Shown one piece after another: positions 6,785 to 55,545 of a stretch of DNA of 64,000 nt. The position numbers and the translations under genes are program-made. Origin of the DNA: Sphingomonadales bacterium (lineage in GTDB: Bacteria; Pseudomonadota; Alphaproteobacteria; Sphingomonadales; Sphingomonadaceae). The notes below the pieces were generated by a model. It searched no databases. It was not told where the DNA came from and saw nothing but the letters and a program-made list of their open reading frames with translations. The stretch covers positions 1 through 64,000 of the forward strand of contig JAIXUQ010000099.1 in NCBI GenBank assembly GCA_027483465.1, written 5' to 3'. Positions within the stretch are counted from its first letter, which is position 1, and each line of letters starts with the position of its first letter.

Positions 6785-6918
6785 CCCACACCCTCCCCTG
6801 CTTCAGAGATTGCGCCTTGATGCGCTTCTTTTTTTACGCATACTAATATCTATATGGGTTTTAAGCAAACATATGCGTTTTCATTGACCGGGTCACCTGC
6901 ATGATTCGCTGGCCGGCA
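6785..6918 (-). promoter_or_regulatory. Promoter region with two TTACGCATA-type boxes
   Basis: Upstream of the FadD19-like ligase. Two inverted half-sites are present: TTACGCATA at 6834-6842 and CATATGCGTT at 6870-6879. They are separated by AT-rich sequence unlike the surrounding coding DNA. The same box occurs in the other promoter regions of the island. It drives the ligase and possibly the DCC gene. Confidence 0.65.
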
Positions 6919-8523
6919 TCAGCGCGCGCGCAACAGGTCTGCCGCCTTTTCCCCAATCATGATCGCCGCTGCATTGGTGTTGCCCGACACCAAACGGGGC
7001 ATGACCGATGCATCGGCCACGCGCAGACCGGTAACCCCGCGCACCCGCAGCTGGGGATCAAGCACGGCGGTGTCGTCGATCCCCATCCGGCAAGTGCCAA
7101 CCGGGTGATAGCCGGTGTTGCCATAACGCCTGGCATGATCCAGCAGCGCGGCATCGCTGGCGCATTGATCCCCGGGCCATTGTTCCACAGCGCCGAGGGC
7201 GGCGAGCGGCGCTGTGGCGGCCAGGGCGCGGGCCAAGCGCATGGCCTGCACCGAAAGACGGCAGTCATGCTCTGCGGTGAGATAATTGTGGACGATGTGG
7301 GGCACGGCTTCGGGATCGGCGCTGGCCAGCCGGACATGGCCGCGGGATTCGGGGCGCAGCACACAGGGTGCCAGCGTGAGCCCGGGCCAGGGCGACAGGC
7401 TGACGTCGCCGCCATCGGCCGCCGCCCCCAAATCACCGGAAACCGGCAGGCAATGGAATTGCAGGTCTGGCCGATCCAGCACCGGATCCGATTTCACGAA
7501 GGCGCCGGTCTGGGCGGCGGGGATGGTCATGGCGCCGCGGCGGCGCACCAGATAGTTGATCATGTTGCGAACCAGGCCAAAACCCGACAGCTCGCGGTTG
7601 AAGCTGAAGGCATTGTCGCGCAGCCGCCAGCACATCGTCAGGATGAAATGATCCTGCAGGTTGGCGCCAACCTCGGGGCTGTCGTGCACGGGCACGATGC
7701 CCTTCGCCGCCAGATCGGCAGCAGGCCCGATGCCCGACAGCATCAACAGCTTCGGGCTGTGGTAGGCACCGGCCGCCAGGATCACCTCCCGCGCGGCCGA
7801 CACGGTCTGGTTGCCGCCGGGCCCGGCCACTTCCACACCAACGGCTCGCCGGCCCTCGAGGACCACGCGGCGAGCAAGATGGCCGGTGAGGACGGTGAGA
7901 TTCGGGCGCTTGAGCACCGGCCGCAGATAGGCATCCGCCGCAGAGCAGCGCCGGCCATCGTGAATGGTGGTTTGATAATAGAAGACGCCGTGCTGATCCG
8001 CCCCATTATAGTCTGCCGTGGCCGGGACCCCAAGTTCGGCAAAACCGGCGAGCACGGCATCATTGGTCGGATCGCGGTGGACCACTTCCTCCACCCGCAG
8101 CGGGCCAGACCCGCCGCGCAGATCGGAACCGCCCCCGGCAAAATGCTCGGCCCGGCGGAACAGCGGGGCGACATCAGCCCAGCCCCAGCCGATGGCGCCC
8201 AGATTGCTCCAGCTGTCATAATCCTCGGCCTGGCCGCGGACATAGATCAGGCCGTTGATGTTGGAAGAACCGCCAAGGCCGCGCCCGCGCGGCACGAGCA
8301 TGGTGCGCCCCCCCAGGCCCGGTTCAGGCGCGCTGTGATAATGCCAGCTGTGGCCGAACTGCTTGACCGTGCGGCCATAACCGGCGGGCATCGACACCAG
8401 GAAGTCGCGCCCGTTGCCGCCAGCCTCGATCAGGATGACGGAAACCGCCGGGTCCTCCGACAGCCGGGCGGCCAGCACGCAGCCCGCCGACCCTCCACCC
8501 ACGATCACATAATCGGCCTTCAT
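6919..8523 (-). CDS. GMC-family FAD-dependent alcohol dehydrogenase
   Basis: 534 residues from ATG 8523 (MKADYVIVGGGSAGCVLAAR). The 16-codon upstream extension would overlap the divergent sulfatase promoter and has no better start. The N-terminal Rossmann motif VIVGGGSAGC is followed by the GMC signature RGRGLGGSSNINGLIYVRG. Catalytic histidine regions are YHPVGTCRMG and the C-terminal SGNTNAAAIMIGEKAADLL. It resembles choline- and alcohol-dehydrogenase members that oxidise primary or secondary alcohols to aldehydes or ketones. Substrate unknown; oxidation of a hydroxyl on the steroid or of an alcohol released by the adjacent divergent sulfatase is a guess. No operator box was found between it and the sulfatase. 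Confidence 0.8.
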   Translation of the reverse strand: MKADYVIVGGGSAGCVLAARLSEDPAVSVILIEAGGNGRDFLVSMPAGYGRTVKQFGHSWHYHSAPEPGLGGRTMLVPRGRGLGGSSNINGLIYVRGQAEDYDSWSNLGAIGWGWADVAPLFRRAEHFAGGGSDLRGGSGPLRVEEVVHRDPTNDAVLAGFAELGVPATADYNGADQHGVFYYQTTIHDGRRCSAADAYLRPVLKRPNLTVLTGHLARRVVLEGRRAVGVEVAGPGGNQTVSAAREVILAAGAYHSPKLLMLSGIGPAADLAAKGIVPVHDSPEVGANLQDHFILTMCWRLRDNAFSFNRELSGFGLVRNMINYLVRRRGAMTIPAAQTGAFVKSDPVLDRPDLQFHCLPVSGDLGAAADGGDVSLSPWPGLTLAPCVLRPESRGHVRLASADPEAVPHIVHNYLTAEHDCRLSVQAMRLARALAATAPLAALGAVEQWPGDQCASDAALLDHARRYGNTGYHPVGTCRMGIDDTAVLDPQLRVRGVTGLRVADASVMPRLVSGNTNAAAIMIGEKAADLLRAR

Positions 8524-8591
8524 GCCATCCTCCAGCCCCGGTCGGCACCGGGCACAAAATGAACAAAACACGCCAAGGGGAAATCAGGACC

Positions 8592-10571: not shown

Positions 10572-10603
10572 GCGGCGCCGAGGGCGGTGGCCGGGCGGCG
10601 CGA

Positions 10604-13836: not shown

Positions 13837-13845
13837 GGCAGCCGA

Positions 13846-16386: not shown

Positions 16387-16564
16387 CCCTTCATCCTCCC
16401 CTTTGCTCTGCCGAATCCGCGCCCAATTGATCGCCGGGTCTTCGCTTCGGTTGCACAATGAATGACGGAAAGCGCAATGTCGGTCAAACGGTTTTACGCG
16501 TTAAATGCCCCAATCGCGATATGCGCTTCATTTTGCGTAACAGTATATGCGGAGTGTTGCGCTT
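16387..16564 (-). promoter_or_regulatory. Promoter region with at least four operator boxes
   Basis: Between the TonB receptor start and the KshA-like gene stop. Box-like sequences: TTTACGCGTT at 16493-16502, ATATGCGCTT at 16520-16529, TTTGCGTAAC at 16532-16541 and TATATGCGG at 16544-16552. A further CTTTTACGCC at 16562 overlaps the kshA stop codon. This is the densest group of boxes in the island, upstream of the putative uptake operon. Confidence 0.65.
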
Positions 16565-17644
16565 TTACGCCACTTTTCCCCAGGGGTCGCGCTGGGTGCC
16601 GCGCGTGGTCACCACGCCATTGACCCGAGCATGGAATTCGCCCGCCCGCGCACGCGGATTGAAGAACTGGCGATACCAGATGCGCACCTTGCCGAAGGGG
16701 CCATCGCCGGGTACGGCCAGCGGCTGCAGGCACGGCCGCTTGTGGGCCCAGATCTCGAAATCCTGGGCAAAGGCCAGCCGCCCGGCTTCCTCATACCCAC
16801 GCGCGGCGGCGACATCGGCCTCACCCGGCTCTGCCGCAGCCACCTTCACGGCAAGGCCGTACCAAACCTTCACCAACCCATCGTCCACCGGCGTATGGGT
16901 GATCAGCATGAGGCTGGGATATTCACCAACCATGGTGGATTGCAGGATGCCGGGGCCGGTGTACCAGGTGTCGTTGGTCATCGGCTCGGCACCGCTGCCG
17001 GCCAGCGTCTTGTGGCCAGCTGTCAGGATCTGGCGCACGACATGGCCGTCAAACACATTGTCGAACAGCACCAGGTCGATCGATCCATGGACGGGCTCGA
17101 GATGGCCCTTGTCACAGATATTGTCGATGATCTCCTGCGGGTGACAGGCAAGTTCACCCAGACAGGCCACGTTCCAGTTCACCCAATGCGCGGCACCAGC
17201 ATGATCGAAGGCCGGCAGCTCGTAATCCGGCTCACCACCCTCGGTATCGTGCCACACCCAGAGGCAACCGGCGCGTTCGATCACGCTCCAGCTCTTGAGG
17301 CAGGCCGCCTTGGGAATGGGTGCCGGCGAATAGGGGATTTCATTGCAGCGGCCATCAGGCCCGAACCGCCACGCATGATAGGGGCAGCGGATATTGTCCC
17401 CTTCCACATGCTTGCCGTCGGTCACCACATAGGAGGTGGTGTTGCGGGCGAGATGCGTGCCCATGTGGGGGCAATAGGCCTCCACCAGGAACACGCGGCC
17501 AGACTGGCCACGATACAGCACCATGTCCTGACCGAAATAGCGCACCGCCAGCGGGGTGGTGGTCGCATCGGCTGACGTGCCGATCATGAACCAGCCGCGC
17601 GGGTAGGTGAACTCCCCCAGGCCATAGTCCGCCGTCGTTGCCAT
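16565..17644 (-). CDS. kshA: Rieske oxygenase, 3-ketosteroid 9alpha-hydroxylase oxygenase subunit-like
   Basis: 359 residues from ATG 17644 (GGAGGACGGTATC upstream). The Rieske [2Fe-2S] ligands are C58, H60, C87 and H90 (YCPHMGTHL; CPYHAWRF). The mononuclear iron site is in DNICDKGHLEPVH (D178, H181, H186). The opening YPRGWFMIGTSADA, IIDNICDKGH and the closing FEIWAHKRP ... IWYRQFF match KshA, which hydroxylates C9 of 3-ketosteroids so that, with KstD, ring B opens. No KshB-type ferredoxin reductase is encoded in the window, so electrons must come from elsewhere. The assignment is strong at family level; exact position specificity is inferred. Confidence 0.8.
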   Translation of the reverse strand: MATTADYGLGEFTYPRGWFMIGTSADATTTPLAVRYFGQDMVLYRGQSGRVFLVEAYCPHMGTHLARNTTSYVVTDGKHVEGDNIRCPYHAWRFGPDGRCNEIPYSPAPIPKAACLKSWSVIERAGCLWVWHDTEGGEPDYELPAFDHAGAAHWVNWNVACLGELACHPQEIIDNICDKGHLEPVHGSIDLVLFDNVFDGHVVRQILTAGHKTLAGSGAEPMTNDTWYTGPGILQSTMVGEYPSLMLITHTPVDDGLVKVWYGLAVKVAAAEPGEADVAAARGYEEAGRLAFAQDFEIWAHKRPCLQPLAVPGDGPFGKVRIWYRQFFNPRARAGEFHARVNGVVTTRGTQRDPWGKVA

Positions 17645-17765
17645 GATACCGTCCTCCCTTGGCCGGGACGATATCAATAGCGTAGATCGATAGCAATAGG
17701 TTTGACTGATAAGGAGGCAGATAGCCGATTTACGCTGCTATATGCGTAAAATCATGGCTTATACG
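17645..17765 (-). promoter_or_regulatory. Promoter region of kshA with a perfect inverted repeat operator
   Basis: Contains TTTACGC-N8-GCGTAAA at 17729-17750, a perfect 7-bp inverted repeat, about 85-105 bases upstream of the kshA start. A second box, GTTACGCAT at 17765-17773, overlaps the stop codon of the upstream Lrp/AsnC gene. This is the clearest two-fold symmetric copy of the island operator. Confidence 0.7.
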
Positions 17766-18266
17766 TTACGCATCATCGCCGGCGTCCGCGGCGGGCGCGC
17801 TTGCCGCCGTGATGCGCACGACCCGGGGGTCATATTTGAACGTCTTGACCGCGATTGAGGTTTCCACGTGGTGCACGCCCGGCAACGCCAGGATGCGGTC
17901 CGACGTTTCCAGCACCAGATTTTCAAGCTCGGCGAACAGGCAGATCGCCAGGATGTTGAACTGCCCCATGGTGACCATGACGGCATTGACCTGCGGCACC
18001 TCGGCGATGGCCTGCGCCACCGCACGAACATCATCCACCTGGGCCTGGACACCGATGAAAGCCAGCCGCGCGGCGCGGTTGATGCCAAAGCCGGTGATGG
18101 CGGTGAAGGCGATCAACCGCTCCTCCTGCAGCCGCTTGATGCGGCCGCGCACCGTGCCTTCGGTCACACCAAGGTCAGCGGCGATGCGCCGGTTCGACAC
18201 GCGGGCATCCTTGGCCAGCACATCGATCAGCTGGCGATCGAGATCATCAAGCTGGGGCAGGCTCAT
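17766..18266 (-). CDS. Lrp/AsnC-family transcriptional regulator (second gene of pair)
   Basis: 166 residues. The N-terminal winged helix-turn-helix (LDDLDRQLIDVLAKDARVSN; IAADLGVTEGTVRGRIKRLQ) is followed by a C-terminal ligand-binding RAM domain (VVRITAAS at the end). These regulators form octamers or multimers and bind several spaced sites, often sensing a small molecule. It overlaps its paralogue by four bases, so the two are co-translated and may form mixed oligomers. The gene lies amid the steroid genes and its operon promoter holds the shared boxes; I infer it regulates the island. Regulation of steroid degradation by Lrp/AsnC proteins is not something I know to be described. Confidence 0.9.
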   Translation of the reverse strand: MSLPQLDDLDRQLIDVLAKDARVSNRRIAADLGVTEGTVRGRIKRLQEERLIAFTAITGFGINRAARLAFIGVQAQVDDVRAVAQAIAEVPQVNAVMVTMGQFNILAICLFAELENLVLETSDRILALPGVHHVETSIAVKTFKYDPRVVRITAASAPAADAGDDA

Positions 18267-18751
18267 GATGCTGCGCGATCCTCGATGGGGGCCACGTCGA
18301 ACTTGTATTTGATGACGTCGACCGCAATGGCCGGCAGGATCGAACGGATGCCGCGCACCTGGCCGAACTTGTTGAACAACAGGGTTGGCAGCTCGTCGAA
18401 ATCGTGGAGCACGACCAGGAGGTCGATGTCATAGCGGCCCGTCACCACATGGGCGGCAAACACCTCGGGGAACTGGGCCAGCTCGGCCGCGACATCGGAG
18501 GCCGGGCGCCCTTCCACCTCGACCGCCACCTGCATCAGCACATTGTAACCATGCGCCGAAAAATCCGACACGGCGACAACGCGCAGCTGATTGGCGTCTT
18601 CCATGCGGCGGATCCGGGTTGAAACGGTGGTTGCCGTCAGCCCGAGCGTGTCCGCAATCTGCTGGTTTGATGCGCGACCATTGTTGCGCAACTGCTCAAC
18701 GATGGCGCGGTCGATGTCGTCAAGCACGAATTCCTGTCCCATAATCGGCAT
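18263..18751 (-). CDS. Lrp/AsnC-family transcriptional regulator (first gene of pair)
   Basis: 162 residues from ATG 18751 (GGGGTGGC upstream); ATG 18742 is an alternative. Helix-turn-helix region: DDIDRAIVEQLRNNGRASNQ, then IADTLGLTATTVSTRIRRME. The C-terminal effector domain includes VTGRYDIDLLVVLHDFDELP. It is clearly paralogous to, but distinct from, the downstream Lrp/AsnC protein. The promoter region towards the divergent SDR gene contains the operator boxes, which suggests autoregulation. Confidence 0.9.
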   Translation of the reverse strand: MPIMGQEFVLDDIDRAIVEQLRNNGRASNQQIADTLGLTATTVSTRIRRMEDANQLRVVAVSDFSAHGYNVLMQVAVEVEGRPASDVAAELAQFPEVFAAHVVTGRYDIDLLVVLHDFDELPTLLFNKFGQVRGIRSILPAIAVDVIKYKFDVAPIEDRAAS

Positions 18752-18947
18752 TACGCCAGCCACCCCACGGCATGGCAAGTGGTTTTGACAGCGAGGGCGG
18801 GCGCGATGCTGCTTGACCGGCCCGCCAGCGCGTTTACGCATATAGTGGCAATTATGCCTGATAAAGCGCAATTATTCGCATGACCTTATTGTAAATTCTA
18901 CGCATATATAAGCCGTCGCACAACGAACCCTGGGCAGGAGCCACGAT
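18752..18947. promoter_or_regulatory. Divergent promoter region, regulators / SDR, with boxes
   Basis: Separates the lrp pair (minus) from the SDR (plus). Boxes: TTTACGCATAT at 18833-18843 and CTACGCATAT at 18898-18907, with a weaker TTCGCATGA near 18875. The right-hand box lies just upstream of the SDR start region, where it could overlap the core promoter. The region is AT-rich. Confidence 0.65.
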
Positions 18948-19724: not shown

Positions 19725-19727
19725 GGG

Positions 19728-24314: not shown

Positions 24315-25967
24315 TCAGGGGGTTCCGTTTGCGGCGACCAGCGCCGGCCAGCGGGTGCGCAACTGCACCTTGTCAATCTTGCCCACGGCATTGCGGGGCA
24401 AGGGTTCGGGGGAGAAGATCACCTGGCCCGGCGCCTTGTAGCGCGCCAGCGCATCGGCAACCCGGGCAATGACGGTGCCAGCATCAAGCCCGTCGGCCAC
24501 GACCATGGCGACCAGCAATTCGCCCAGCCGTTCATCCGGTATGCCGAACGCAGCGCATTCCGACACCTCGGGCATCTCGTTGATGACCCGTTCCACCTCG
24601 GCGCAATAGATGTTCTCGCCGCCGGAGATCACCATGTCCTTCTTGCGATCGACGATGAAGACATAGTCCTCCTCGTCGATCAGGCCGATGTCACCGGTCT
24701 TCAGCCAGCCGTCCGGCGACAGCACCGCCGCGGTTTCTTCGGGCCGGCCATGATAGCCCTGCATGACCATATCACCGCGCACGACGATCTCGCCGGCCTG
24801 GCCGCGCGGCAGCGGTTGGCCGTCCTCGCCCATAATGCGCATCTCGACCAGCGGCAGCACCCGGCCGGCCGATGCCCGCTTGCGGATGAAATCCTCGCCA
24901 ATCGCCATCGAGAGGCTGCCGGATGTTTCCGTCATGCCATAGCCGGTGCCCATCACGGCATGCGGGCAGGCCTGACGGATGGCTTCGAGGAGATTGATCG
25001 GCAGCGCCTGGCCGCCGCTCGACACGCTGCGCAGCGAGGAGAGGTCGGCGTCGGCCACCCGGGCGCGGTTGAGCACGTCCCACAACATGGTGGGCACGGC
25101 GGTGAACTGGGTGACCTTTTCCGACTCGATGAGGCGCAGCGCGTCTTCCGGATCCCAACGGCGCATGATCACCAGCTTGGAACCGGAGAACATCGGCGAG
25201 AGGAAGGCCGCACCCAGGCCCGAAATATGGAACAGCGGGAACACCACCAGCACCGCCGCCTGCGGCATGGCCGCGATGATCTGTTCCGGCGTGATGCCAA
25301 GCTGGGCGGCCTTGTCGTGCAGGATCATCAGGCCCGACAGCTGCATGGCCATGATGCCGGTGATCAGGTTGCGGTGGCTGAGCACGGCCCCCTTGGACCG
25401 GCCGGTGGTACCGGAGGTGAACAGGATTACGGCCGGATCGTCGGCGCGGCAAGGCACCGGGGGCGGCAAGGCCTGGGCGGCCGGCGGCGGAAACTCACCG
25501 GCCAGCAGCAGGCGCCCGGCATGGCCGGCCGCCCGGAGCAGATCCGCCCGCTCATCATCCGCGATTACCAGGGCAGGTGACACCTCGGCCACGGCGGCGG
25601 CATGTTCGGCCGGCGATCCGCGGCTGTTGGCCAGGGCCGGCACGCCGCCGGCGCGCCACACGGCGAGGCAGGCGATCACCCACTCGGCCCGGTTTCGCAT
25701 CGAGATCACCACCCGGTCGCCCGGCGCGATCCCCAGCAGCGGCACCAGCGCATCGCGACGGGCAAACACGTCGGCATAGCTGTAGCGCCGGTCGCCTTCG
25801 ACGATGAAGATGGCATCGCCATGCCGGCGCGCCGCCTCGATCAGCAGGTTCAGATCCGGCGGCAGCGCGGTGAAATGCTTGCGGCCATCCTGTTCGGCCA
25901 TGGCAAAGGGCTGCCCTGGCGCCGTCAGGCGCTGCAGGATGGGATCGACGTGGGGCTGGCCGGTCAT
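24315..25967 (-). CDS. Acyl-CoA ligase, candidate bile-acid/steroid carboxylate ligase
   Basis: 550 residues from ATG 25967, overlapping the SDR stop by one base (TGATG). ANL-superfamily motifs: FTSGTTGRSKG at 183-193, GYGMTETSG, DGWLKTGDIG, DRKKDMVISGGENIYCAEVE and the C-terminal LPRNAVGKIDK lysine. It forms acyl-CoA thioesters through an adenylate. It is distinct from the FadD19-like and FadD3 ligases in this window, so three different steroid acids or intermediates are probably activated. The operon with Rieske oxygenase and amidase makes the C5 carboxylic side chain of bile acids its most likely substrate (inference). Confidence 0.85.
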   Translation of the reverse strand: MTGQPHVDPILQRLTAPGQPFAMAEQDGRKHFTALPPDLNLLIEAARRHGDAIFIVEGDRRYSYADVFARRDALVPLLGIAPGDRVVISMRNRAEWVIACLAVWRAGGVPALANSRGSPAEHAAAVAEVSPALVIADDERADLLRAAGHAGRLLLAGEFPPPAAQALPPPVPCRADDPAVILFTSGTTGRSKGAVLSHRNLITGIMAMQLSGLMILHDKAAQLGITPEQIIAAMPQAAVLVVFPLFHISGLGAAFLSPMFSGSKLVIMRRWDPEDALRLIESEKVTQFTAVPTMLWDVLNRARVADADLSSLRSVSSGGQALPINLLEAIRQACPHAVMGTGYGMTETSGSLSMAIGEDFIRKRASAGRVLPLVEMRIMGEDGQPLPRGQAGEIVVRGDMVMQGYHGRPEETAAVLSPDGWLKTGDIGLIDEEDYVFIVDRKKDMVISGGENIYCAEVERVINEMPEVSECAAFGIPDERLGELLVAMVVADGLDAGTVIARVADALARYKAPGQVIFSPEPLPRNAVGKIDKVQLRTRWPALVAANGTP

Positions 25968-26842
25968 CAATACACCGCCGCCGGGTTTTTCGGGCGGGGG
26001 TCGCCCAGCATGGCCCGGTAGGACGGACGGTCATGCCCGCGATCCTGCACACCCAGCGTCGCGGCGATCTCGGCCCCCACCAGGGTCTGCCCTGACAACT
26101 CATCGCGCTGCGGCGAGGCATCGATGGCGTGGATGATGTGGGCGGTGAACTCCGGGTTCTCGGCACTGGCGATGAAGTCGCGATATTGCTCGGGATTGGT
26201 CTGGCTGGCGATCAGCGAGCGTTCGGTGACCAACGGCCCCATCCAGATCGACACGGCAATCACCCCGGTGCCGCGCAGATCATGCTCCATGTCATGCGCC
26301 AGCTTGTCGACCCCGGCCTTCTGGGCGCCATACGCCGGGCCGTGCATGTAGCAGGACCCGCCGAACGACGAGCCGAAGGCAATCACGCCCCGGCCGGCCG
26401 GCACCATCATCTGCGCCGCGTGCCAGGACGCGACATAGGCCGAACGCAAGCCGACATCGAGGATGCGGACGGCGTCCAGTTCCTTCTCCCAGAATGGCTT
26501 TTTCTCGATGAGCTGGTGGTGGATGTAGGTCGCGTTGTTGACCAGCACATCCAGCCGGCCCGATTCGTCGGCAATGCGCGCAAACAGCGCCGCGATCTGC
26601 GCATCATCGCCATGATCGCACATCACCGGAATGCCGCGGCCACCCGCCGCTGTCACGGCAGCCGCCGTTTCGGCCACGGTGCCGGGCAGGATGGTGCCAT
26701 CCCAGCCACGGGCATCACCGGGGGACACGGTGCGGCCGGTGACATAGACCGTGTAGCCCAGCTCACCAAAGCCGCGGGCAATGCCGGCGCCGGCACCACG
26801 ACTGGCGCCGGTGACCAGCGCCACCCGTTCATGATTGGGCAT
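25967..26842 (-). CDS. SDR-family oxidoreductase, first gene of the side-chain-type operon
   Basis: 291 residues from ATG 26842 (GGAGGGTTT directly upstream). Cofactor motif VTGASRGAGAGIARG, NNATYIHHQL, catalytic FGSSFGGS and YGAQK. The middle and C-terminus are longer than in a classical SDR (extra region RSLIASQTNPEQYRDFI ... LGVQDRGHDRPSYRAML), a form also seen in predicted dehydrogenases of the DHRS1-like group. Function unknown; as the promoter-proximal gene of the seven-gene operon it probably acts on the same compound as the CoA ligase. Confidence 0.82.
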   Translation of the reverse strand: MPNHERVALVTGASRGAGAGIARGFGELGYTVYVTGRTVSPGDARGWDGTILPGTVAETAAAVTAAGGRGIPVMCDHGDDAQIAALFARIADESGRLDVLVNNATYIHHQLIEKKPFWEKELDAVRILDVGLRSAYVASWHAAQMMVPAGRGVIAFGSSFGGSCYMHGPAYGAQKAGVDKLAHDMEHDLRGTGVIAVSIWMGPLVTERSLIASQTNPEQYRDFIASAENPEFTAHIIHAIDASPQRDELSGQTLVGAEIAATLGVQDRGHDRPSYRAMLGDPRPKNPAAVY

Positions 26843-26984
26843 AAACCCTCCCCACTCGCAACGCATATCGCGCTTTTTTTGGATTATTGACCACGTAACG
26901 CGAAATTGAAAGCCCCTTTTCGTTACGCATTATGCGATTTGTCCGCCCCGCTGGCGTTGATATGCGCAGCCATGCCCGATCGGC
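26843..26984 (-). promoter_or_regulatory. Promoter region of the Rieske/amidase operon with boxes
   Basis: Boxes: CAACGCATATCG at 26859-26870, GTAACGCG at 26895-26902 and the nearly symmetric GTTACGCATTATGCGA at 26922-26937. TATGCGCA at 26961 is a weaker copy. The first box is within 20-30 bases of the start codon, where a bound regulator could repress. Confidence 0.65.
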
Positions 26985-35808: not shown

Positions 35809-35817
35809 GTCATGTCC

Positions 35818-36603
35818 TCAAAGAAATCGGGCGGTGCAGCCGCCAATGCCGGCCAAGTGCATTTCGAACACATCACCGGCCACGGCCGGCGCCAACGGCA
35901 CCATCGATCCCGACAGGATGATGTCGCCGGCATCCAGCGTGACGCCATATTGGCCCAGCGTGTTGGCAAGCCAGGCGACGGCCTGGGCCGGATTGCCCTG
36001 CACGGCCGCACCCACCCCTTCGGACAACGGGGCGCCATTCTTGGTCACCGTCACCCGCAAGGCCGGCAGATCATGGGCGCGCGGATCGGCGCGCGCGGCA
36101 CCCAGCACGAACACGCCGCAACTGGCATTGTCGGCCACGGTATCGACAATGCCGATCTTCCAGTCGGTGATGCGGCTGTCGACGATTTCAAAACAAGGGG
36201 CGATCGCGGCGGTAGCGGCAATCACCTGTTCAGCCGTCACGCCCGGCCCGCGCAACGGTTCCGCCAGGATGAAGGCGATCTCGGCTTCGGCCCGCGGCTG
36301 GATAAGGCGATGCGCGGCGACGTCGATGTCGCCTTCCACGAGCATGGCATCGGTCAGGAAACCGAAATCCGGCTGGTGCACGCCCAGCATGTCCTGAACC
36401 GCCTTGCTGGTCACGCCGATCTTCTTGCCCACGACCCGTTCGCCATCGGCAAGACGGCGCGAGAGGAAATCCAGGCTGATGGCATAGGCATCATCAATGG
36501 AGAGCGAGGGGTCCTGTGCGATCAGCGGTGCCACGGTGTGGCGACCACGCAGGGCCCGGTACAATTGCTCTCCGTGCCGGGCGGCAATGACCTCGCGGCT
36601 CAC
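35818..36603 (-). CDS. hsaE: 2-Hydroxypenta/hexa-2,4-dienoate hydratase
   Basis: 261 residues. The fumarylacetoacetate-hydrolase-like fold carries the metal ligands in RAEAEIAF (two glutamates) and CFEIVDSR, with VGKKIGVTSKAVQDMLGV near residue 58. Adds water to the dienoate released by HsaD. It overlaps hsaB by four bases. Order and function are as in the hsaEGF module of steroid degraders. Confidence 0.93.
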   Translation of the reverse strand: MSREVIAARHGEQLYRALRGRHTVAPLIAQDPSLSIDDAYAISLDFLSRRLADGERVVGKKIGVTSKAVQDMLGVHQPDFGFLTDAMLVEGDIDVAAHRLIQPRAEAEIAFILAEPLRGPGVTAEQVIAATAAIAPCFEIVDSRITDWKIGIVDTVADNASCGVFVLGAARADPRAHDLPALRVTVTKNGAPLSEGVGAAVQGNPAQAVAWLANTLGQYGVTLDAGDIILSGSMVPLAPAVAGDVFEMHLAGIGGCTARFL

Positions 36604-37094
36604 AAATAGCCTCCGTCCTGGTAGATCAGCGGTTCAACGGTGTCGCTGACCCGGGCCCGGATCACCCGCGCAATCACGATGCTGTGCGTGCCATAGGCCA
36701 GCATTGCATCGATAACGCATTCCAGATTGGCCTGGGCGTCGGCCAGCGCCGGCAAGCCATTGTCCGCTGGCTGCCAGTTGCCCACCTGAAACCGTTCGGC
36801 GCGCGGCATGCCGCCGCCAAAGGCCATCGACACGTTCTTGTGGTGGCGGGCCAGCAGGTTCACCGAAAGCGGGGCCGTGGGCACCAACGAGGCATGCAGA
36901 CTGGTCATGCGGTTGACGCAGACGAGCACCGCCGGTGGATCGGCGGTGAGCGATGTGATCGACGTTGCCGCCATGCCAACCGGCCCATCATCCCCCCTGG
37001 CGACCACGATCGAAACCGAGGCCGCCAACCGCCGCATGGCCGCCTTGAACAGGTCTGGCAGGTCGGCAGCGACGAGGGGATAACCTTCAGCCAT
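36600..37094 (-). CDS. hsaB: Flavin reductase component of steroid A-ring monooxygenase
   Basis: 164-residue flavin reductase-domain protein (GMAATSITSLTADPPAVLVC; MTSLHASL; FQVGNWQPADNGLPALADA). It supplies reduced flavin to HsaA, which hydroxylates 3-hydroxy-9,10-seconandrostatriene-type intermediates. Located between hsaD and hsaE and overlapping both, it fits the two-component HsaA/HsaB system. Confidence 0.9.
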   Translation of the reverse strand: MAEGYPLVAADLPDLFKAAMRRLAASVSIVVARGDDGPVGMAATSITSLTADPPAVLVCVNRMTSLHASLVPTAPLSVNLLARHHKNVSMAFGGGMPRAERFQVGNWQPADNGLPALADAQANLECVIDAMLAYGTHSIVIARVIRARVSDTVEPLIYQDGGYL

Positions 37095-37905
37095 TCAGGA
37101 AGCCGATGGCATGGGTGTTGAACTCGGCCGCCCGCTCCACCTGCACCCAATGCCCGGTCCGGGTGAAGGTCATGGTGCGCACATCCGGGCAGTGATCAAG
37201 GAACAGCCTGGCATGGCTTTCCGGGCAGAATTCATCGTTCAGGCCCCACATGACCAGCATGGGGCAGGTGATTCCGGCAAGGCGCAGGCCCAGGTTGGGC
37301 GTCCGCATCCGCACCAGCACATCCTTGGGCTGGGTGCGTGCCACCGCAAACCGCTCCTCCACCAGCCAATCCGGAATCTGTGCCACGAAATCGGGATGCA
37401 CCAGGTTGCAGACCAGCCGGCGCTGCTCGGCAAGGTTGAAATCCGGCCCGCCAAAGTTGGAGACCATCTTGGCAATTCCCGGCATGGTGAAATAGCTGGC
37501 CTGCTCCGCCACGCAGCCCGGCGCCATCAACACCAATCGATCGGTGCCAGCCGGATTGTCCAGCGTAAGCTGCAGCGCAATGCCGCCCCCCAGCGAATTG
37601 CCGACAAACGAGGCCTTGCCGATCCCATGCAGGTCAAGCGCCTCGCGCACCGTGTCGGTAAACAATTGCAGCGTGTAGTCGATGCCCTCAGGCTTTGACG
37701 ACGCGCCATAGCCGATGAGATCGGGCAGGATCACCCGCCAGCCAGCCTCCACAAAGGCCGCGATGTTCTGCCGGAAGTTGGACGCGCCCGAAGCGCCGGG
37801 CCCGCTGCCGTGCAGGAACACCAGCGGCGGGCCATCCCCGGCCTCGGCGATGTGGATATCGTGGCCACCGGTCACGCGGTGGGTGCGCGAACGCAATGCA
37901 GCCAT
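37087..37905 (-). CDS. hsaD: Meta-cleavage product hydrolase
   Basis: 272 residues from ATG 37905; a longer frame would read through the hsaA end. Alpha/beta hydrolase: nucleophile S104 in FVGNSLGGG, oxyanion region FLHGSGPGASGASNFRQN, acid in LNDEFCPE and catalytic histidine in RTGHWVQVE. HsaD cleaves the C-C bond of the diseco dienoate formed by HsaC, giving the C6 dienoate and the HIP acid. It begins 13 bases after hsaA and overlaps hsaB by eight bases. Confidence 0.94.
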   Translation of the reverse strand: MAALRSRTHRVTGGHDIHIAEAGDGPPLVFLHGSGPGASGASNFRQNIAAFVEAGWRVILPDLIGYGASSKPEGIDYTLQLFTDTVREALDLHGIGKASFVGNSLGGGIALQLTLDNPAGTDRLVLMAPGCVAEQASYFTMPGIAKMVSNFGGPDFNLAEQRRLVCNLVHPDFVAQIPDWLVEERFAVARTQPKDVLVRMRTPNLGLRLAGITCPMLVMWGLNDEFCPESHARLFLDHCPDVRTMTFTRTGHWVQVERAAEFNTHAIGFLNG

Positions 37906-37918
37906 GACCGCCCCCGCC

Positions 37919-39130
37919 TCAGAGGAAAGTGAAGGCGGGCGCTTCGCCCAGCAGCGTGCCGACAACATCACCGGTGCGATTGGCCGGATCGTTGGCAACA
38001 TGCGCCCGCGCGGCATTGAGATCCAGCCAGGGCTGGATGATCTCGCTGCTGGTGTAGATGGCGCGACCACCCAGCAACTGCATCACATCATCCACCAGAT
38101 CAACGATCCGGCGCACCACCATGGAGGATTGGTAGGTGTACATGGCGCGCTTCTGCATCGGGATCGCCTCGCCGCGCTCGGCAATGGCCATCAGATCCTC
38201 AAAGCTCAGCCGAAGGGTGGTTTCCATCTCGTCCACCTGCGCAATGGCCTTGGCCAAGGCTGCGTGAAGGATCGGGTCCGCCTTTGACGCCTTGCCGGTG
38301 TTGGTCGAAATGCGCGACTGCATGATCGCCATGGCCGCGTTGATGGCCGCCCGCGCGCCGCCAAAGGCCGCGGTAGACACCGAGCGGACGAACACCTGTG
38401 CCCACGGCAAGCGATAGAGCGGCCCGTCATTTTCGGCCTGACCGGGGTTCTGGCACAGGAAGCCGTCCACCGCCCGGTGAGTGCGATATTCGGGCACGAA
38501 CACATCATCGACGATGATGTCATGGCTGCCTGTGCCCTGCAGGCCGAACACGTGCCAGGCATCACGATCGATGGTGTAATCACTGCGCGGCAGCAGGAAA
38601 GTGCGCATGTCGGGCGCCCCGCCGGGCGTGTCCGAAGGCACCAGCGCGCCCAGCAGCACCCAGCCGCAATGCACGGAACCGGTCGAGAAGCCCCAATGGC
38701 CCGAGAGCCGGAAGCCACCGTCCACCCGGGTCACCTTGCCCACTGGCTGATAGGTCGACGACACCAGCATGCCCGGGTTGCCACCCCACACCTCGGCCTG
38801 GGCATGATCATGGAACAGCGCCAACTCATAGGGATGGCAGCCAACCACGCCATACATCCAGCCGGTGGACATGCAGCCTTCGGCCAGCGCCTTCTGCACT
38901 TCGAAGAACACGTTGGGGTGCATTTCATACCCGCCCCAGCGCCGCGGCTGCAGGATACGGAAGAAGCCGGAGTCCTGCATTTCGGCAATGGTTTCGGCCG
39001 GGATGTCGCGCGCGGCAATGCAGGCACGCGCCCGCGCCTTCAGCACCGGGATCATCGCCCGCGCGCGCGCCACCAACTCGTCGGCGCTGGGCAAGCCGGC
39101 ATCGGCATCATGGGCAAAGGCTGTCGCCAT
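37919..39130 (-). CDS. hsaA: Flavin-dependent secosteroid monooxygenase, oxygenase component
   Basis: 403 residues from ATG 39130 (GGAGGAGAAGCAGG upstream). An acyl-CoA dehydrogenase-fold group D flavin monooxygenase: MQDSGFFRILQPRRWGGYEM, GHWGFSTGSVHCGWVLLGA, and the C-terminal GGRAIYTSSEIIQPWLDLNA match HsaA and p-hydroxyphenylacetate hydroxylase relatives. It uses reduced flavin from HsaB to hydroxylate the phenolic A ring to a catechol. First gene of the minus-strand hsa operon, divergent from the hsaC-fadD3 operon across a box-containing promoter region. Confidence 0.93.
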   Translation of the reverse strand: MATAFAHDADAGLPSADELVARARAMIPVLKARARACIAARDIPAETIAEMQDSGFFRILQPRRWGGYEMHPNVFFEVQKALAEGCMSTGWMYGVVGCHPYELALFHDHAQAEVWGGNPGMLVSSTYQPVGKVTRVDGGFRLSGHWGFSTGSVHCGWVLLGALVPSDTPGGAPDMRTFLLPRSDYTIDRDAWHVFGLQGTGSHDIIVDDVFVPEYRTHRAVDGFLCQNPGQAENDGPLYRLPWAQVFVRSVSTAAFGGARAAINAAMAIMQSRISTNTGKASKADPILHAALAKAIAQVDEMETTLRLSFEDLMAIAERGEAIPMQKRAMYTYQSSMVVRRIVDLVDDVMQLLGGRAIYTSSEIIQPWLDLNAARAHVANDPANRTGDVVGTLLGEAPAFTFL

Positions 39131-39354
39131 CCTGCTTCTCCTCCCCGGGGCAGGTCGACTCATCCGGCCATGCCCATTGTTCGTAAAAAAATATGGCTCA
39201 CTCTACGCAAATCGTCAATTGAATAGCGCCGGACTATCGGATACTGTTCATTCAACGCCCCAAAAGCGCGTGATTCAGCAATCGTCCAGATTGCCGCATC
39301 ACCCAGCGGGGCACCGGCCGGCGCAAAGATGACGGCCACACGAGGGGGAGGCAG
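39131..39354. promoter_or_regulatory. Divergent promoter region of the two main nucleus operons
   Basis: Contains CTCTACGCAAAT at 39201-39212 and a weaker TTCGTAAAAAA at 39180-39190. The operator copies here are fewer and less symmetric than elsewhere. The region controls hsaA to the SnoaL-like gene (minus) and the SDR-hsaC-fadD3 operon (plus). No other gene is present in the 224 bases. Confidence 0.6.
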
Positions 39355-40122
39355 GTGGCAGTTTCCGGGCATTATGGCCTGCAAGGCAAGGTGGCGCTGG
39401 TGACAGGCGGCACGCGCGGCCTTGGCCGGCACATCGCGCAGGGCCTGGCCGGCCAGGGCTGCCGGGTGGCGGTGTGCTCGCGCACGCCGGCGGCGGATCC
39501 CCTGCCCGGCATCGATGCCCATGTCCTCGATATCCGGGATGCCGAACAGGCCCAGGCCCTGGTGGCCTCTGTTGCGGCCAGCCATGGCGGCATCGACATT
39601 CTGGTCAACAATGCCGGCGGCTCGCCGGCGGTGCCGGCGCAAGCGGCCAGCCCGCGGCTGGTTGACGCCTTGCTGAAGCTCAATCTGGTGGCCCCGTTCA
39701 CGCTGGCACAGGCCGTGTATCCGCACATGGCGGCCCGCGGTGGCGGCAGCATCATCAACATCGCCAGCGTCTCAGGCGCGCGGCCATCGCCGGGAACGGC
39801 CATCTACGGCGCGGCCAAGGCGGGGCTGATGAACCTCACACAGAGCCTGGCCCAGGAATGGGGCCGCGATGGCATCCGGGTGAACGCGATCATCGCCGGC
39901 CTGATGGCCACCGAAACGGCCGAGCACACCTATGGCGATGCCGCGGCCCAGGCCGCGGTGGGCCGTTCGATGCCGTTGGGCCGCATGGGCACCGGCGATG
40001 ATCTGGCCGGTGCCGTGTGCTGGCTGTGCAGCGACGATGCCGCCTGGGTCAGTGGCGCGCGCCTGCAGGTCGATGGCGGCGGCGAGCGCCCCTATTTCCT
40101 CGAACTGGTGAAAGGAAGCTGA
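39355..40122 (+). CDS. SDR-family oxidoreductase, first gene of the ring A-D operon
   Basis: 255 residues from GTG 39355, preceded by GGGGGAGGCAG, the only good ribosome-binding site. VTGGTRGLGRHIAQGL cofactor loop, NNAGG, catalytic NIASVSGARPSPGTAIYGAAK, and C-terminal LQVDGGGERPYFLEL. It begins the 16-gene operon and is followed by hsaC after three bases. A dehydrogenase for a hydroxyl on the steroid rings or on a HIP intermediate is likely; the substrate is not shown by sequence. Confidence 0.87.
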   Translation: MAVSGHYGLQGKVALVTGGTRGLGRHIAQGLAGQGCRVAVCSRTPAADPLPGIDAHVLDIRDAEQAQALVASVAASHGGIDILVNNAGGSPAVPAQAASPRLVDALLKLNLVAPFTLAQAVYPHMAARGGGSIINIASVSGARPSPGTAIYGAAKAGLMNLTQSLAQEWGRDGIRVNAIIAGLMATETAEHTYGDAAAQAAVGRSMPLGRMGTGDDLAGAVCWLCSDDAAWVSGARLQVDGGGERPYFLELVKGS

Positions 40123-40125
40123 GCG

Positions 40126-41064
40126 ATGGCGATCAAGGCGCTTGGCTATGTTGTGATCGGCACCCAGAAGCTGGCGGCGTGGCGACAGTTTCTTGTCGAC
40201 GTGGTGGGCATCATGCCGGCCGGCGCCGCGCCCGGCGGTGCCGAACTCTACCGCCTCGATGACCGGCCCTTCCGCTTCTGGGTGGAACCGTTTGATGGCG
40301 AGCGGCTGCTGGCTGCGGCCTATGAGATCAGTGACGCCGCCGCATTCGAAGCGCTGGCCGGGCGCCTGGCCGCTGCCGGCCGGCCCGTTGAGCGCGGCAG
40401 CGCCGAACTGGCGGCCGCGCGCGGCGTCGATGCCGTTTTGCGCACCAGCGATCCGGCCGGAAACGGGCTGGAATTCTATTGTGGCGACCGGCGCGACAGC
40501 GTCCCCTTCGTTTCGCCCCAGGGGGTCGAGGGCTTTGTGACCGGGGTGCTGGGCATGGGCCATGCCGTGGTTGCCGCGCCCGATCTGGCCGCGTCGCACC
40601 GTTTCTATCGCGATGTCGTCGGCTTTCACGACACCGACGTGCCGCGCTTCTACTTTGGCGGCGGCCCGCCCGATGATCCGGGCATGGGCTTTGTTTTCAT
40701 GCACGCCGACAATGGGCGGCATCACAGCATCGCCTTTGGCGAAAGCCCGGTGCCGCCATCGGGCTGCATTCACCTGATGCTCGAGATGACCAGCCTGGTT
40801 GACGTGGGCCGGTGCCATGACCGCATGCGCCTCGCTGGCGTGCCCGAAAGCGCGACGCTGGGCGGCCATGTCAACGACGAGATGACCAGCTTCTACATGC
40901 AGACCCCGTCGGGCTTTGATCTCGAGATCGGGTGCAATGGGTTGGTGATCGACCCAGCCAGCTGGCAGGCCACGGCCCACACCCGCATCAGCGAGTGGGG
41001 CCATGTCTGGGCCTGGCAGGTGGCCATGGCCAAGGCCGCCGCCCAGGCGGAGGCCGCCGAATGA
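40126..41064 (+). CDS. hsaC: Extradiol (meta-cleaving) dioxygenase of secosteroid catechol
   Basis: 312-residue two-domain type I extradiol dioxygenase of the vicinal-oxygen-chelate fold. Fe(II) ligands are H146 (GMGHAVV), H216 (CIHLMLE) and E268 (FDLEIG), at the same spacing as BphC. It cleaves the catecholic A ring produced by HsaA/HsaB next to a hydroxyl. It overlaps ipdA by four bases. Context with hsaA, hsaB and hsaD makes the steroid substrate very likely; 2,3-dihydroxybiphenyl-type activity may be a side reaction. Confidence 0.94.
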   Translation: MAIKALGYVVIGTQKLAAWRQFLVDVVGIMPAGAAPGGAELYRLDDRPFRFWVEPFDGERLLAAAYEISDAAAFEALAGRLAAAGRPVERGSAELAAARGVDAVLRTSDPAGNGLEFYCGDRRDSVPFVSPQGVEGFVTGVLGMGHAVVAAPDLAASHRFYRDVVGFHDTDVPRFYFGGGPPDDPGMGFVFMHADNGRHHSIAFGESPVPPSGCIHLMLEMTSLVDVGRCHDRMRLAGVPESATLGGHVNDEMTSFYMQTPSGFDLEIGCNGLVIDPASWQATAHTRISEWGHVWAWQVAMAKAAAQAEAAE

Positions 41065-41948
41065 CGGCCATGCTCGACAAGCGCCTGTCCGCTGCCGAAA
41101 TCGTCAGCCGCCTTCAGGACGGCATGACCATCGGCATTGGCGGCTGGGGGCCGCGCCGCAAGCCAATGGCCCTGGTGCGGGAAATCCTGCGCTCAGGCCT
41201 GAAGGACCTGACCATCGTCTCTTACGGCGGCGCCGATGTCGGCATGCTCTGTGCTGCCGGCCGGGTGAAGAAGCTCGTTTTTGCCTTTGTCTCGCTGGAT
41301 GCCATTCCGCTCGAAGCCTGGTTCCGCAAGGTGCGGGAAGCCGGCGCCATCGAGGTGATGGAGCTGGACGAGGGCATGCTGCAATGGGGCCTGAAGGCGG
41401 CCGCCTTCCGCCTGCCGTTCCTGCCAACCCGTGTCGGCCTGGGCACCGATGTCGTGCCGCTGGCCGGGCTGAAGACCGTGCAATCGCCCTATGCCGACGG
41501 CGAGGTGCTGGTGGCCATGCCGGCGCTGCGCCTTGATGCGGCCCTGCTCCACGTCAATCGCTGCGATTGGCGCGGCAATGTGCAGTTGCTCGGGCCCGAC
41601 CTTTACTACGACGAGTGGTTCGCTCGCGCGGCCGATGCCACCTATGTCTCGACCGAGGTGCTGGTCGACCGGATGGAAGATCATTTCCCCGGCGATGCCG
41701 CCGCCAACCTGTTCGAACGCAGCTTCGTGCAGGGCGTTGCGCATCTGCCTGGCGGCGCACATCCGTCCAGCCTGCCGCCCCTGCACGGGCCCGACATGGC
41801 CTGGTTCAAGGCCTATTCCGACGCCGCCCGTGACCCTGGCGACTGGGCCGCCGTGGCCGAGCGGTTCGTGGGCGCAACAGAAGCCGATTACATGGCCGGC
41901 ATCGGCGGCCCGGAGGCGGTGGCGGCAGTGCCACTGGCGATCTACTGA
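41061..41948 (+). CDS. ipdA: Ring-C/D CoA hydrolase, alpha subunit
   Basis: 295 residues of the class I CoA-transferase alpha fold (GMTIGIGGWGPRRKPMALVR; LTIVSYGGADVGMLCAAG). Within steroid degraders the IpdA-IpdB pair has diverged to hydrolyse the last carbocyclic ring intermediate (COCHEA-CoA) rather than transfer CoA. Length, adjacency to ipdB and operon context support this name. It overlaps hsaC and ipdB by one to four bases. Confidence 0.9.
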   Translation: MTAMLDKRLSAAEIVSRLQDGMTIGIGGWGPRRKPMALVREILRSGLKDLTIVSYGGADVGMLCAAGRVKKLVFAFVSLDAIPLEAWFRKVREAGAIEVMELDEGMLQWGLKAAAFRLPFLPTRVGLGTDVVPLAGLKTVQSPYADGEVLVAMPALRLDAALLHVNRCDWRGNVQLLGPDLYYDEWFARAADATYVSTEVLVDRMEDHFPGDAAANLFERSFVQGVAHLPGGAHPSSLPPLHGPDMAWFKAYSDAARDPGDWAAVAERFVGATEADYMAGIGGPEAVAAVPLAIY

Positions 41949-42733
41949 TGATCACCCTTGCCGAACTGTGCATCCACGCCTGTGCCGAGGCCTTCCGCAC
42001 CGACCGGGAAATCATTGCAACCGGTATTGGCCCGGTGCCGCGACTTGGGGCCGGGCTTGCCAAGCTGACCCATTCGCCCGGCCTGATGATGACCGATGGC
42101 GAGGCCTATCTGGTGGAACAGCCGGTGCCATTGGGCCCGCGCAGCACCGCCCCCAAGGCGGCCGGCCATCTCCCCTTCTCGCGCTTTTTCGATGCAGCGG
42201 TCTGGTCGGGCCGGCGGCATGCCATCGTTACGCCAACCCAGATCGACCGTTTTGGCCAAACCAACCTGTCGTGCCTGGGCGGCGATCATGCCCGCCCGCG
42301 CACACAGATGCTGGGCGTGCGCGGATTTCCGGGCAATTCCATCCATCACCGCAATTCGCTGTTCGTGCCGGCCCATGGCACCCGCACCTTCGTGGCGGGC
42401 GAAGTCGATATGGTGTCGAGCGCTGGCTACAACCCGGCCCGGCGCCTGCCCGGCGGCCATTATGGCGACATCGACCTGCACCGCATCATCACCAACCTGT
42501 GCGTGATGGACTTCGGTGGACCGGATCATGCGGTGCGCCTGGTATCGCTGCATCCCGGTGTCAGCGTGGATGACGTGCAGGCCGCCACCGGCTTCCCGGT
42601 GCTGGTCGAAGGGCAGGTGCCGGAAACCGCCCTGCCCGACGCCGATGCGCTGGCCATCATCCAATCGCTGGATCCCCACAATTTCAGGGGCAGCGTCATC
42701 CAGGGCAATCCGCCGGTGGGGAGAGAAGCATGA
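41948..42733 (+). CDS. ipdB: Ring-C/D CoA hydrolase, beta subunit
   Basis: 261-residue partner of IpdA (TDREIIATGIGPVPRLGAGL; GVRGFPGNSIHHRNSLFVPA; VVSL-type ending GVSVDDVQAATGFPV). Its ATG shares a base with the ipdA stop (TGATG). The heteromer opens ring D/C intermediates in the last steps of HIP degradation. Confidence 0.9.
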   Translation: MITLAELCIHACAEAFRTDREIIATGIGPVPRLGAGLAKLTHSPGLMMTDGEAYLVEQPVPLGPRSTAPKAAGHLPFSRFFDAAVWSGRRHAIVTPTQIDRFGQTNLSCLGGDHARPRTQMLGVRGFPGNSIHHRNSLFVPAHGTRTFVAGEVDMVSSAGYNPARRLPGGHYGDIDLHRIITNLCVMDFGGPDHAVRLVSLHPGVSVDDVQAATGFPVLVEGQVPETALPDADALAIIQSLDPHNFRGSVIQGNPPVGREA

Positions 42734-44709: not shown

Positions 44710-44712
44710 ACC

Positions 44713-47563: not shown

Positions 47564-47571
47564 GGTTCCCC

Positions 47572-48723: not shown

Positions 48724-48730
48724 GGACGCC

Positions 48731-53115: not shown

Positions 53116-53118
53116 ACC

Positions 53119-54663: not shown

Positions 54664-54677
54664 TCACTGCACCCAGT

Positions 54678-55430
54678 TCATTGCACGGTAGCGCCGCCAT
54701 CCACCACCAGCGGATGCCCAGTGATAAAGCTGGCAGCGTCCGAGCACAGGAACAGCACGGCTGCCGCAACTTCTTCGGCGCGGCCCATGCGGCCCATCGG
54801 CGTCATGCCATCCACGATCTTGCGCATCGCCGGATCGGCCGTCAGCGGGGCGGTCATCGGGGTTTCGATGACGCCCGGGCACACCGCATTGACCCTGATG
54901 CCCGCCTTCGCCCATCGCAGCGCGCCATGGCGCGTCAGGCCCACCACGCCATGCTTGGTGGCGACATAGGCCGGCTGCGCCGCATTGCCGGTCAAACCGT
55001 TGATCGACGATGTGTTGACGATGGCGCCGCCGCCGGACTTCAGCATGACCTCGGCCTCTTCGCGCATGCACAGCATCACTCCGGTCAGGTTGATACCAAG
55101 GCTGCGATCCCACACGGCGTCATCATATTCACTGGCGGCCAGATTGGTGATGCCAGCATTGTTATGGGCAAAGTCCAGCCGCCCCCAGGCATCCACCGCC
55201 CGCGCCACCATGGCCTTCACCTCGGCTGCATCGGCGACATTGCAATGCTGGTACACGGCCTCCCCACCGGCGGCCGCGATCATCGCCACCGTCTCCTCGC
55301 CGCCGGCATCATTGACATCCGACACCAGAACCCGCGCGCCACAGGCGGCAAACGCGATTGCCGTTGCCCGGCCAATGCCGCCACTCGCCCCGGTCACCAG
55401 GGCCACCCTGCTGGAAAAATCGTAAAGCAT
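54678..55430 (-). CDS. SDR-family oxidoreductase
   Basis: 250 residues. VTGASGGIGRATAIAFAACG, CNVADAAEV, NNAGITNLAAS, catalytic NTSSINGLTGNAAQPAYVATK and LVVDGGATVQ. A single-gene unit convergent with fadD3, 14 bases away, and with three operator boxes upstream. A hydroxysteroid dehydrogenase is likely. This is the right-most gene that I assign to the island. Confidence 0.87.
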   Translation of the reverse strand: MLYDFSSRVALVTGASGGIGRATAIAFAACGARVLVSDVNDAGGEETVAMIAAAGGEAVYQHCNVADAAEVKAMVARAVDAWGRLDFAHNNAGITNLAASEYDDAVWDRSLGINLTGVMLCMREEAEVMLKSGGGAIVNTSSINGLTGNAAQPAYVATKHGVVGLTRHGALRWAKAGIRVNAVCPGVIETPMTAPLTADPAMRKIVDGMTPMGRMGRAEEVAAAVLFLCSDAASFITGHPLVVDGGATVQ

Positions 55431-55545
55431 GCCCCTAGCTTAACGCGTATCTGAAGCAGATCAAGATCATATCATTGCATTATCGATCATTAGGAAAACT
55501 TACCTTAATGCGTAAAAATATGTGATCTATTTTACGCGTTGCGGC
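55431..55545 (-). promoter_or_regulatory. Promoter region of the last SDR with three boxes
   Basis: CTTAACGCGTAT at 55439-55450, TAATGCGTAAA at 55506-55516 and TTTTACGCGTTG at 55530-55541, in an AT-rich stretch. This is the right-most occurrence of the operator in the window. Confidence 0.65.

Follow-up and report, generated by a model that had tools for sequence, protein, structure and literature searches.

A shared operator in the promoters of a sphingomonad steroid-degradation island and its association with a pair of Lrp/AsnC-family genes

A 64,000-nucleotide stretch of a Sphingomonadales bacterium (assembly GCA_027483465.1, contig JAIXUQ010000099.1, positions 1 to 64,000; hereafter the window) carries an island of steroid-degradation genes in which nine promoter regions share an operator. 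The 10-mer TTTACGCATA is one arm of this operator, a 38-bp inverted repeat of approximately TATATGCGTAAT-N14-ATTACGCATATA whose arm centres lie 26 bp from each other. Direct computation gave the operator and its spacing, the target genes, the degree to which it is conserved and concentrated in the island, and its joint occurrence with two adjacent regulator genes, lrp1 and lrp2. It is quite probable that the genes concerned form a conserved steroid and bile-salt regulon controlled through this operator by the Lrp1/Lrp2 pair.

All nine regions named in the original prediction carry an operator copy, five of them strong and four weak. The copies are listed below without strand. Scores are from a 40-column matrix trained on relatives only, and E denotes the expectation value in a search of the whole genome.

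6806..6845, weak operator upstream of the acyl-CoA ligase gene, one arm good and one poor; score 16.8
16529..16568, weak operator upstream of the TonB-dependent receptor gene; score 20.3
17738..17777, operator in the kshA promoter, overlapping the 3' end of lrp2, arms TATGCGTAAA and GTTACGCATC; score 34.8, genome E 0.0053, exact match to TNCGTA-N18-TACGNA
18870..18909, weaker operator between lrp1 and SDRa; score 21.9, one mismatch to the same bipartite pattern
26894..26934, variant operator with 27-bp spacing upstream of SDRc; arms-only score 21.6
27764..27803, operator between the divergent SDRd and SDRe, with TTGACA directly after it on the SDRe side; score 31.0, genome E 0.19
31118..31157, operator between the divergent snoaL and SDRf, the top-scoring site of the window; score 38.8, genome E 6.2e-4
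39175..39214, operator between the divergent hsaA and SDRg/hsaC operons; score 29.6, genome E 0.025, exact match to the bipartite pattern
55504..55543, operator upstream of SDRj; score 35.9, genome E 0.0021

No other place in the window reaches 16 with this matrix, so that the restriction genes, the insertion sequence (IS) remnants and the sulfatase/GMC gap are free of the operator, as had been predicted. Sixty Markov shuffles of the window gave a maximum of 14.5, none reaching 16. Being nearly symmetric, the matrix scores up to 20.5 in the window even when read backwards, and its three backwards matches of at least 16 (16518, 18871 and 31117) lie on or beside known sites; the four weak copies are for this reason less secure one by one. 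As a control the backwards matrix was replaced by column-permuted palindromic matrices and spacing scans.

The arm clusters in the island. Allowing one mismatch, TTTACGCATA has 7 matches in the window against 0.70 expected, a number reached in none of 100 shuffles, and 10 of the 12 occurrences of TACGCA in the window fall within 1.9 kb of intergenic DNA (12 listed stretches). The whole genome (3.58 Mb) holds 23 matches to TTTACGCATA at the same tolerance, 7 of them in the window, itself 1.8% of the genome, and 4 exact matches, 3 of them in the window; the 10-mer is thus concentrated in the island and not common in the genome. For the bipartite pattern TNCGTA-N18-TACGNA with at most one mismatch there are 11 places genome-wide. 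Six of these, including both exact ones, are in the window, where 0.12 matches are expected. A sequence-only model of 56 sites from relatives gave 9 matches at E≤10 in the genome, at five places that are all island promoters (kshA, SDRd/SDRe, snoaL/SDRf, hsaA/SDRg and SDRj). Because of its first-look filter this search may overlook weak sites, and its E-values are rough.

The length and geometry of the operator were derived from promoters of the window and of related genomes. A motif search on the nine promoters (hard assignment, number of sites set to 18) returned the 12-mer TATATGCGTAAA (reverse complement TTTACGCATATA), with a total information of 237 bits; six shuffled promoter sets gave no more than 168. 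A soft expectation-maximization search without overlap limits was rejected because it converged on AT-rich palindromic noise. Around Lrp1 orthologues, stretches of at most 40 kb were taken from 22 other genomes, out of 24 whose Lrp1 is at least 58% identical; the 12-mer is enriched in most, not all, of these, and 35 of the 53 plus/minus pairs of 12-mers within 80 bp have starts exactly 26 bp apart. The earlier view that copies often occur in inverted orientation is correct for the arms, but the unit is the 38-bp inverted repeat with 26-bp start spacing, and the motif as a stand-alone 10-mer was rejected. A gap-free alignment of 56 pairs taken from relatives and not from the window, after removal of repeated sequences and of G228, whose pairs almost duplicate those of G265, has the consensus nnnTATGCGTAATn11TnnATTACGCAAAnnn, which sets the operator at about 38 bp. 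The half-sites are asymmetric: where a perfect palindrome needs C, 233 of the 265 unique half-sites carry T and 25 carry C. Regularly spaced, imperfect inverted-repeat sites are typical of Lrp/AsnC-type operators, and here two such arms stand at a fixed 26 bp.

The spacing holds outside the training set. In 31 of 38 named loci (7 were dropped as contigs already in the set) there are 72 arm pairs at 26 bp versus 0 to 3 at each other spacing from 18 to 37; 7 of the 72 are letter-identical to a training site and 65 are unique others. Across 54 stretches containing Lrp genes (1.38 Mb), 153 operators score at least 22 bits, spread over 49 stretches, of which 65 are identical to training sites and 88 are not; these counts are not independent, since close relatives are among the stretches. 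At the same threshold five column-permuted palindromic matrices gave 0 matches and the matrix read backwards gave 2 in all 54 stretches. By a crude gene caller that marks 95% of the DNA as coding, 132 of the 153 operators are intergenic, and the 21 counted inside genes include the window site at 27764, which truly lies between two genes. Twelve of the 153 have no called start within 320 bp, two of these being window sites that do precede genes. An extra single arm (18833-18844) lies near the lrp1/SDRa operator, giving two same-orientation arms 64 bp apart in window 18833-18909. Same-orientation distances of 63-64 bp account for 6 of 45 in relatives and are perhaps a second layer of operator spacing.

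The operators in the window precede the following genes and units, for which the names hsaA, KstD and SDRa to SDRj are labels taken from Pfam domains and context.

16565..17644, minus strand, kshA (KshA_C, Rieske; Pfam; start inferred)
25967..26842, minus strand, SDRc (Pfam; start inferred), heading a unit with a ligase, an amidohydrolase, a second KshA-type protein and an amidase
28667..30358, plus strand, FAD-binding dehydrogenase downstream of SDRe and part of that target unit, labelled KstD (Pfam FAD_binding_2)
33848..39163, minus strand, hsa-type unit (hsa names are labels; Pfam, aldolase by NCBIfam TIGR03217), containing a member of the HsaA-like acyl-CoA dehydrogenase family, a flavin reductase, a hydratase, an acetaldehyde dehydrogenase and an aldolase
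39355..42733, plus strand, SDRg, HsaC-like extradiol dioxygenase and following genes (Pfam)
54678..55430, minus strand, SDRj (Pfam)

Orthologous steroid genes have operators before them in relatives as well. Counted as the first downstream gene by best BLAST match to island proteins, the targets are kshA (31), a flavin oxidoreductase gene, oye371 (22), SDRj (22, plus 1 below 50% identity), tonB (19, 8 of them below 50%), SDRb (15, plus 1), hsaC-like genes (14, all below 50%), SDRe (6), SDRc (5) and others; 16 have no island match. SDRj often shares its operator with the flavin oxidoreductase gene, relatives too have operators before SDRc, and an operator is found between SDRg and hsaA in G261, G185 and G135 and between hsaC and hsaA in G273. 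All 17 model matches of relatives outside the fetched Lrp-gene stretches were also inspected. Twelve adjoin homologues of island genes with at least 50% identity (hsaA promoters in G273, G261, G185 and G135, SDRb, SDRc, ligB, SDRf twice, SDRj/oye371, snoaL and ligC), two adjoin weaker TonB or SDR homologues (L153 and L160), two (L152 and L159) have no clear target assignment, and the remaining one, in G107, is off-pathway. Operators thus persist on genes scattered over contigs, and a trans-acting regulator is therefore needed.

The candidate for this regulator is encoded within the island by two overlapping genes.

18263..18742, minus strand, lrp1, Lrp/AsnC-family regulator (AsnC HTH and AsnC_trans_reg; Pfam; start codon inferred), overlapping lrp2 by 4 bp
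17766..18266, minus strand, lrp2, second Lrp/AsnC-family regulator (Pfam)

Both products match PF13404 and PF01037 above cut-off, and the solved relatives listed for the pair are Lrp/AsnC-type regulators. No NCBIfam equivalog (Lrp, AsnC or LysM) fits either protein, all scores being far below cut-off; by sequence Lrp1 and Lrp2 are a separate, unnamed subgroup. Among the 60 open reading frames (ORFs) of the window scanned with Pfam the pair are the only transcription regulators, other helix-turn-helix (HTH) matches being transposases, and no TetR domain is found among these 60, some ORFs lying outside the scan. In 51 of the 54 stretches the lrp1 and lrp2 orthologues are same-strand neighbours, 33 of these pairs overlapping by an estimated 4 bp. 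The other three are L147, where the Lrp1 match is really its Lrp2 and lrp1 is probably beyond the contig end, and L135 and L142, which are solo lrp1 genes on contigs also holding the pair. The recognition helices (LTATTVSTRIRRM in Lrp1 and VTEGTVRGRIKRL in Lrp2 of the window) are well conserved within each paralogue, apart from two variable mid-helix positions in Lrp1, and differ between the paralogues. In the laboratory strain Novosphingobium aromaticivorans DSM 12444 the pair is on plasmid pNL2 (SARO_RS19400 and SARO_RS19395), where operators of at least 22 bits precede hsaA and a KstD-like, FAD-binding gene and also separate SDRb from lrp1.

Two further observations concern the pair in individual relatives. 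The solo second lrp1 genes of N. subterraneum and N. jiangmenense (L135 and L142) share their contigs with the pairs L140 and L139, near which no operator of at least 20 is found; the operator has perhaps diverged there. In L167, a plasmid of Sphingobium sp. TomTYG46, sites at 5445-5673 and 12975-13014 have arms partly of a GGA type (TTCGGAAT / ATTCCGCA). A few helix positions of Lrp1 and Lrp2 are changed there too, which may mark a shift of specificity but is contradicted by G273.

Co-occurrence of operator and pair was determined in 298 genomes of the family, a genome being operator-positive if it has a model match at E≤0.01. This search applied stricter filters and scored at most 22 candidates per genome, so that operator-negative means only that no match was found at that threshold. 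Lrp1 is matched at E≤1e-20 in 36 of the 298 genomes, 25 of them with at least 58% identity. Of the 22 operator-positive genomes, 21 have an Lrp1 of at least 58% identity, versus 4 of the 276 operator-negative genomes. These four are G116, G189, G230 and G253; G189 and G230 each supplied a training site, and L126, the apparent counterpart locus for G116, has a 35-bit site by the matrix. Eighteen genomes supplied training sites, and the other 280 include 6 that are operator-positive (G000, G071, G107, G228, G273 and G296), and 5 of these six belong to the 7 genomes of this set whose Lrp1 is close. At these sites G228 hardly differs from a training genome, and the match in G107 is off-pathway. 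Forty genomes have an ACAD4 orthologue. The five of these without any Lrp1 match (G012, G098, G160, G209 and G282) are operator-negative, as are 10 of the 11 with only a distant Lrp1 of at most 51% identity (G011, G057, G084, G139, G161, G168, G174, G206, G220 and G289), the eleventh being G296. The original prediction of one regulon with its own regulator is well supported by the island-only model matches, the orthologous promoters of relatives and the co-occurrence with the Lrp/AsnC pair, with lrp1-lrp2 as the candidate for the regulator.

The island and its regulator were probably acquired, because all six sampled congeners are without Lrp1 and ACAD4 at the thresholds used. The left flank (window 1-5000) contains transposase genes (IS66 proteins and HTH_Tnp_1), and the right flank (57475-63979) contains a YgjP-like metallopeptidase gene and type I restriction genes.

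It is very probable that the Lrp pair binds the operator. In the proposed mechanism, co-translated Lrp1 and Lrp2 would bind the 38-bp operator as two dimers facing each other, the bound dimers would sit on promoter elements and block transcription, and a steroid or steroid-CoA intermediate would release the proteins and allow transcription. A ligand of steroid type is probable, and repression is, on balance, favoured over activation. Repression relieved by steroid is likeliest because many operators overlap -35-like elements. Measured from the operator start, TTGACA-like hexamers recur at fixed positions, -7 in 25 and +18 in 19 of 179 oriented promoters, with a mean of 1.25 per position. The offset depends on the gene: +18, inside the spacer, in 17 of 19 tonB promoters; -7 in 17 of 22 SDRj and 6 of 15 SDRb promoters; -1 in 9 of 21 promoters before oye371; and +40 in 4 of 6 before SDRe. 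The kshA and hsaC promoters have no common TTGACA-like offset. Most of these offsets would fit steric repression, and the SDRe offset would fit either activation or repression.

Lrp-family proteins can activate or repress, and the pair might instead bind the operator and act mainly as an activator with a steroid inducer. The SDRe operators directly upstream of TTGACA in 4 of 6 promoters, as at window 27764, suggest such an arrangement; since the operator covers or directly follows the putative -35 element in the tonB, SDRj and some SDRb promoters, activation as the main mode is unlikely.

The overlap of the two genes, the distinct conserved helices and the asymmetric arms suggest a mixed Lrp1/Lrp2 complex. 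Binding as a hetero-oligomer of the two proteins has a little less than an even chance. A more specific form, an obligate hetero-oligomer in which one subunit of each protein contacts each asymmetric arm and two heterodimers are inverted 26 bp apart, sensing a steroid or steroid-CoA intermediate, is put forward tentatively. We know of no bacterial Lrp regulator that works only as a heteromer, and the literature search showed none. If true, the obligate hetero-oligomer would be a steroid-responsive branch of the Lrp family.

Several observations weigh against a regulon repressed by the pair through this operator. Read backwards, the TTTACGCATA pattern has 24 genome-wide matches versus 23 forward, and the bipartite pattern 30 per strand versus 11; the signal of both patterns is their location, not their number. 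Five of the 54 Lrp-gene stretches (G253, G071, G273, L139 and L140) have no operator of at least 22. Archaeal Lrp sites are described as two or three helical turns apart (PMC2995911), versus about 2.5 turns for 26 bp. A -10-like hexamer follows a minority of the TTGACA-like sites (for example 4 of 25 at -7 and 3 of 19 at +18), and the position of the SDRe operators, immediately before TTGACA, might serve activation. One operator-like site with a score of 37.1, in G107 (L148 4990-5040), is off-pathway, between serS-like and dksA-like genes (recognised by eye). Arms and helices do not co-vary simply: L167 has GGA-type arms and changed helices, whereas G273 has nearly the same helices and a GTA-type hsaA operator. 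In G296 an operator stands before SDRb, near a contig end, in a genome whose best Lrp1 is 35% identical and in which Lrp2 was not found. Finally, the co-occurrence data do not fully distinguish the Lrp pair from the pathway itself or from some other factor inherited with it.

These last two points bear on a second alternative, that the operator is real and a factor encoded elsewhere, for example of AraC, TetR or LysR type, binds it, the Lrp pair merely travelling with the cluster. Pathway genes and pair are co-inherited, so profiles alone cannot separate them, and AraC and TetR regulators have been proposed for the bile-salt clusters of Caenibius tardaugens (PMC12882949). This alternative is nevertheless improbable, given the close Lrp1 in all but one operator-positive genome, the absence of operator matches at the family threshold in the five ACAD4-positive genomes without an Lrp1 match, the position of the pair as sole transcription regulators among the scanned ORFs, and the different sequences of the proposed EdcR and bsd I palindromes in the passages available. 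A third reading, AT-rich promoter sequence or chance similarity with no common regulator behind the repeats, would accord with the weakness of 4 of the 9 window copies, the AT-richness of intergenic regions and backwards patterns that are no rarer genome-wide, but has a negligible probability in view of the fixed 26-bp spacing in untrained loci, the zero permuted-matrix matches, the 60 shuffles with none at 16 or above and the concentration in the island.

The operator and the Lrp pair suggest how these bacteria may control the breakdown of bile salts and steroids. With a candidate operator of defined geometry, a list of targets and a candidate regulator pair now specified and conserved across many sphingomonad genera, the question of regulation becomes directly testable, and the operator offers a sequence handle for finding unlinked steroid genes. 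The original prediction knew of no described steroid operator of this sequence in sphingomonads, and the literature search, with subscription papers largely outside it, found no paper describing an Lrp operator of sphingomonad steroid degradation. In bile-acid-degrading Proteobacteria regulation is largely unknown (PMC8399759). When Sphingobium sp. Chol11 grows on bile salts, the levels of nearly all enzymes of a large steroid cluster are raised (PMC8540908), and the bile-salt cluster of that strain has two contiguous Lrp/AsnC genes, NCHOL11_RS15865 and RS15860 (PMC12882949), which are probably the same pair as lrp1-lrp2. The same paper links them to amino-acid metabolism, and its available passages contain no operator.

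In the cholesterol regulons of Actinobacteria, controlled by KstR and KstR2, one operator is likewise repeated before many genes, and it differs from the present one. KstR and KstR2 are, like the candidate pair, dedicated regulators of sterol degradation (PMC8399759), but belong to the TetR family and not to Lrp/AsnC. Among sphingomonads, EdcR is a repressor of estrogen degradation in C. tardaugens, and its putative palindromic operator overlaps the -10 box (PMC8700777). EdcR is again a TetR protein with two operons as main targets, and its palindrome, TnnCnnTACnAnTnGTAnnGnnA, differs from the operator alignment when consensus letters are compared by eye, no pattern search for it having been made. 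Lrp/AsnC (feast/famine) regulators with multi-site operators, such as Sa-Lrp and other archaeal Lrp-like proteins, share the AsnC HTH and ligand-binding domains and two partly palindromic, AT-flanked sites; at gltB the bipartite Sa-Lrp site is reported to have centres 24 nt apart (PMC3584215). Archaeal Lrp sites are described as degenerate (PMC2995911), whereas the arms described here are conserved, information-rich and fixed at 26 bp, and they are associated with two co-translated paralogues and a steroid regulon.

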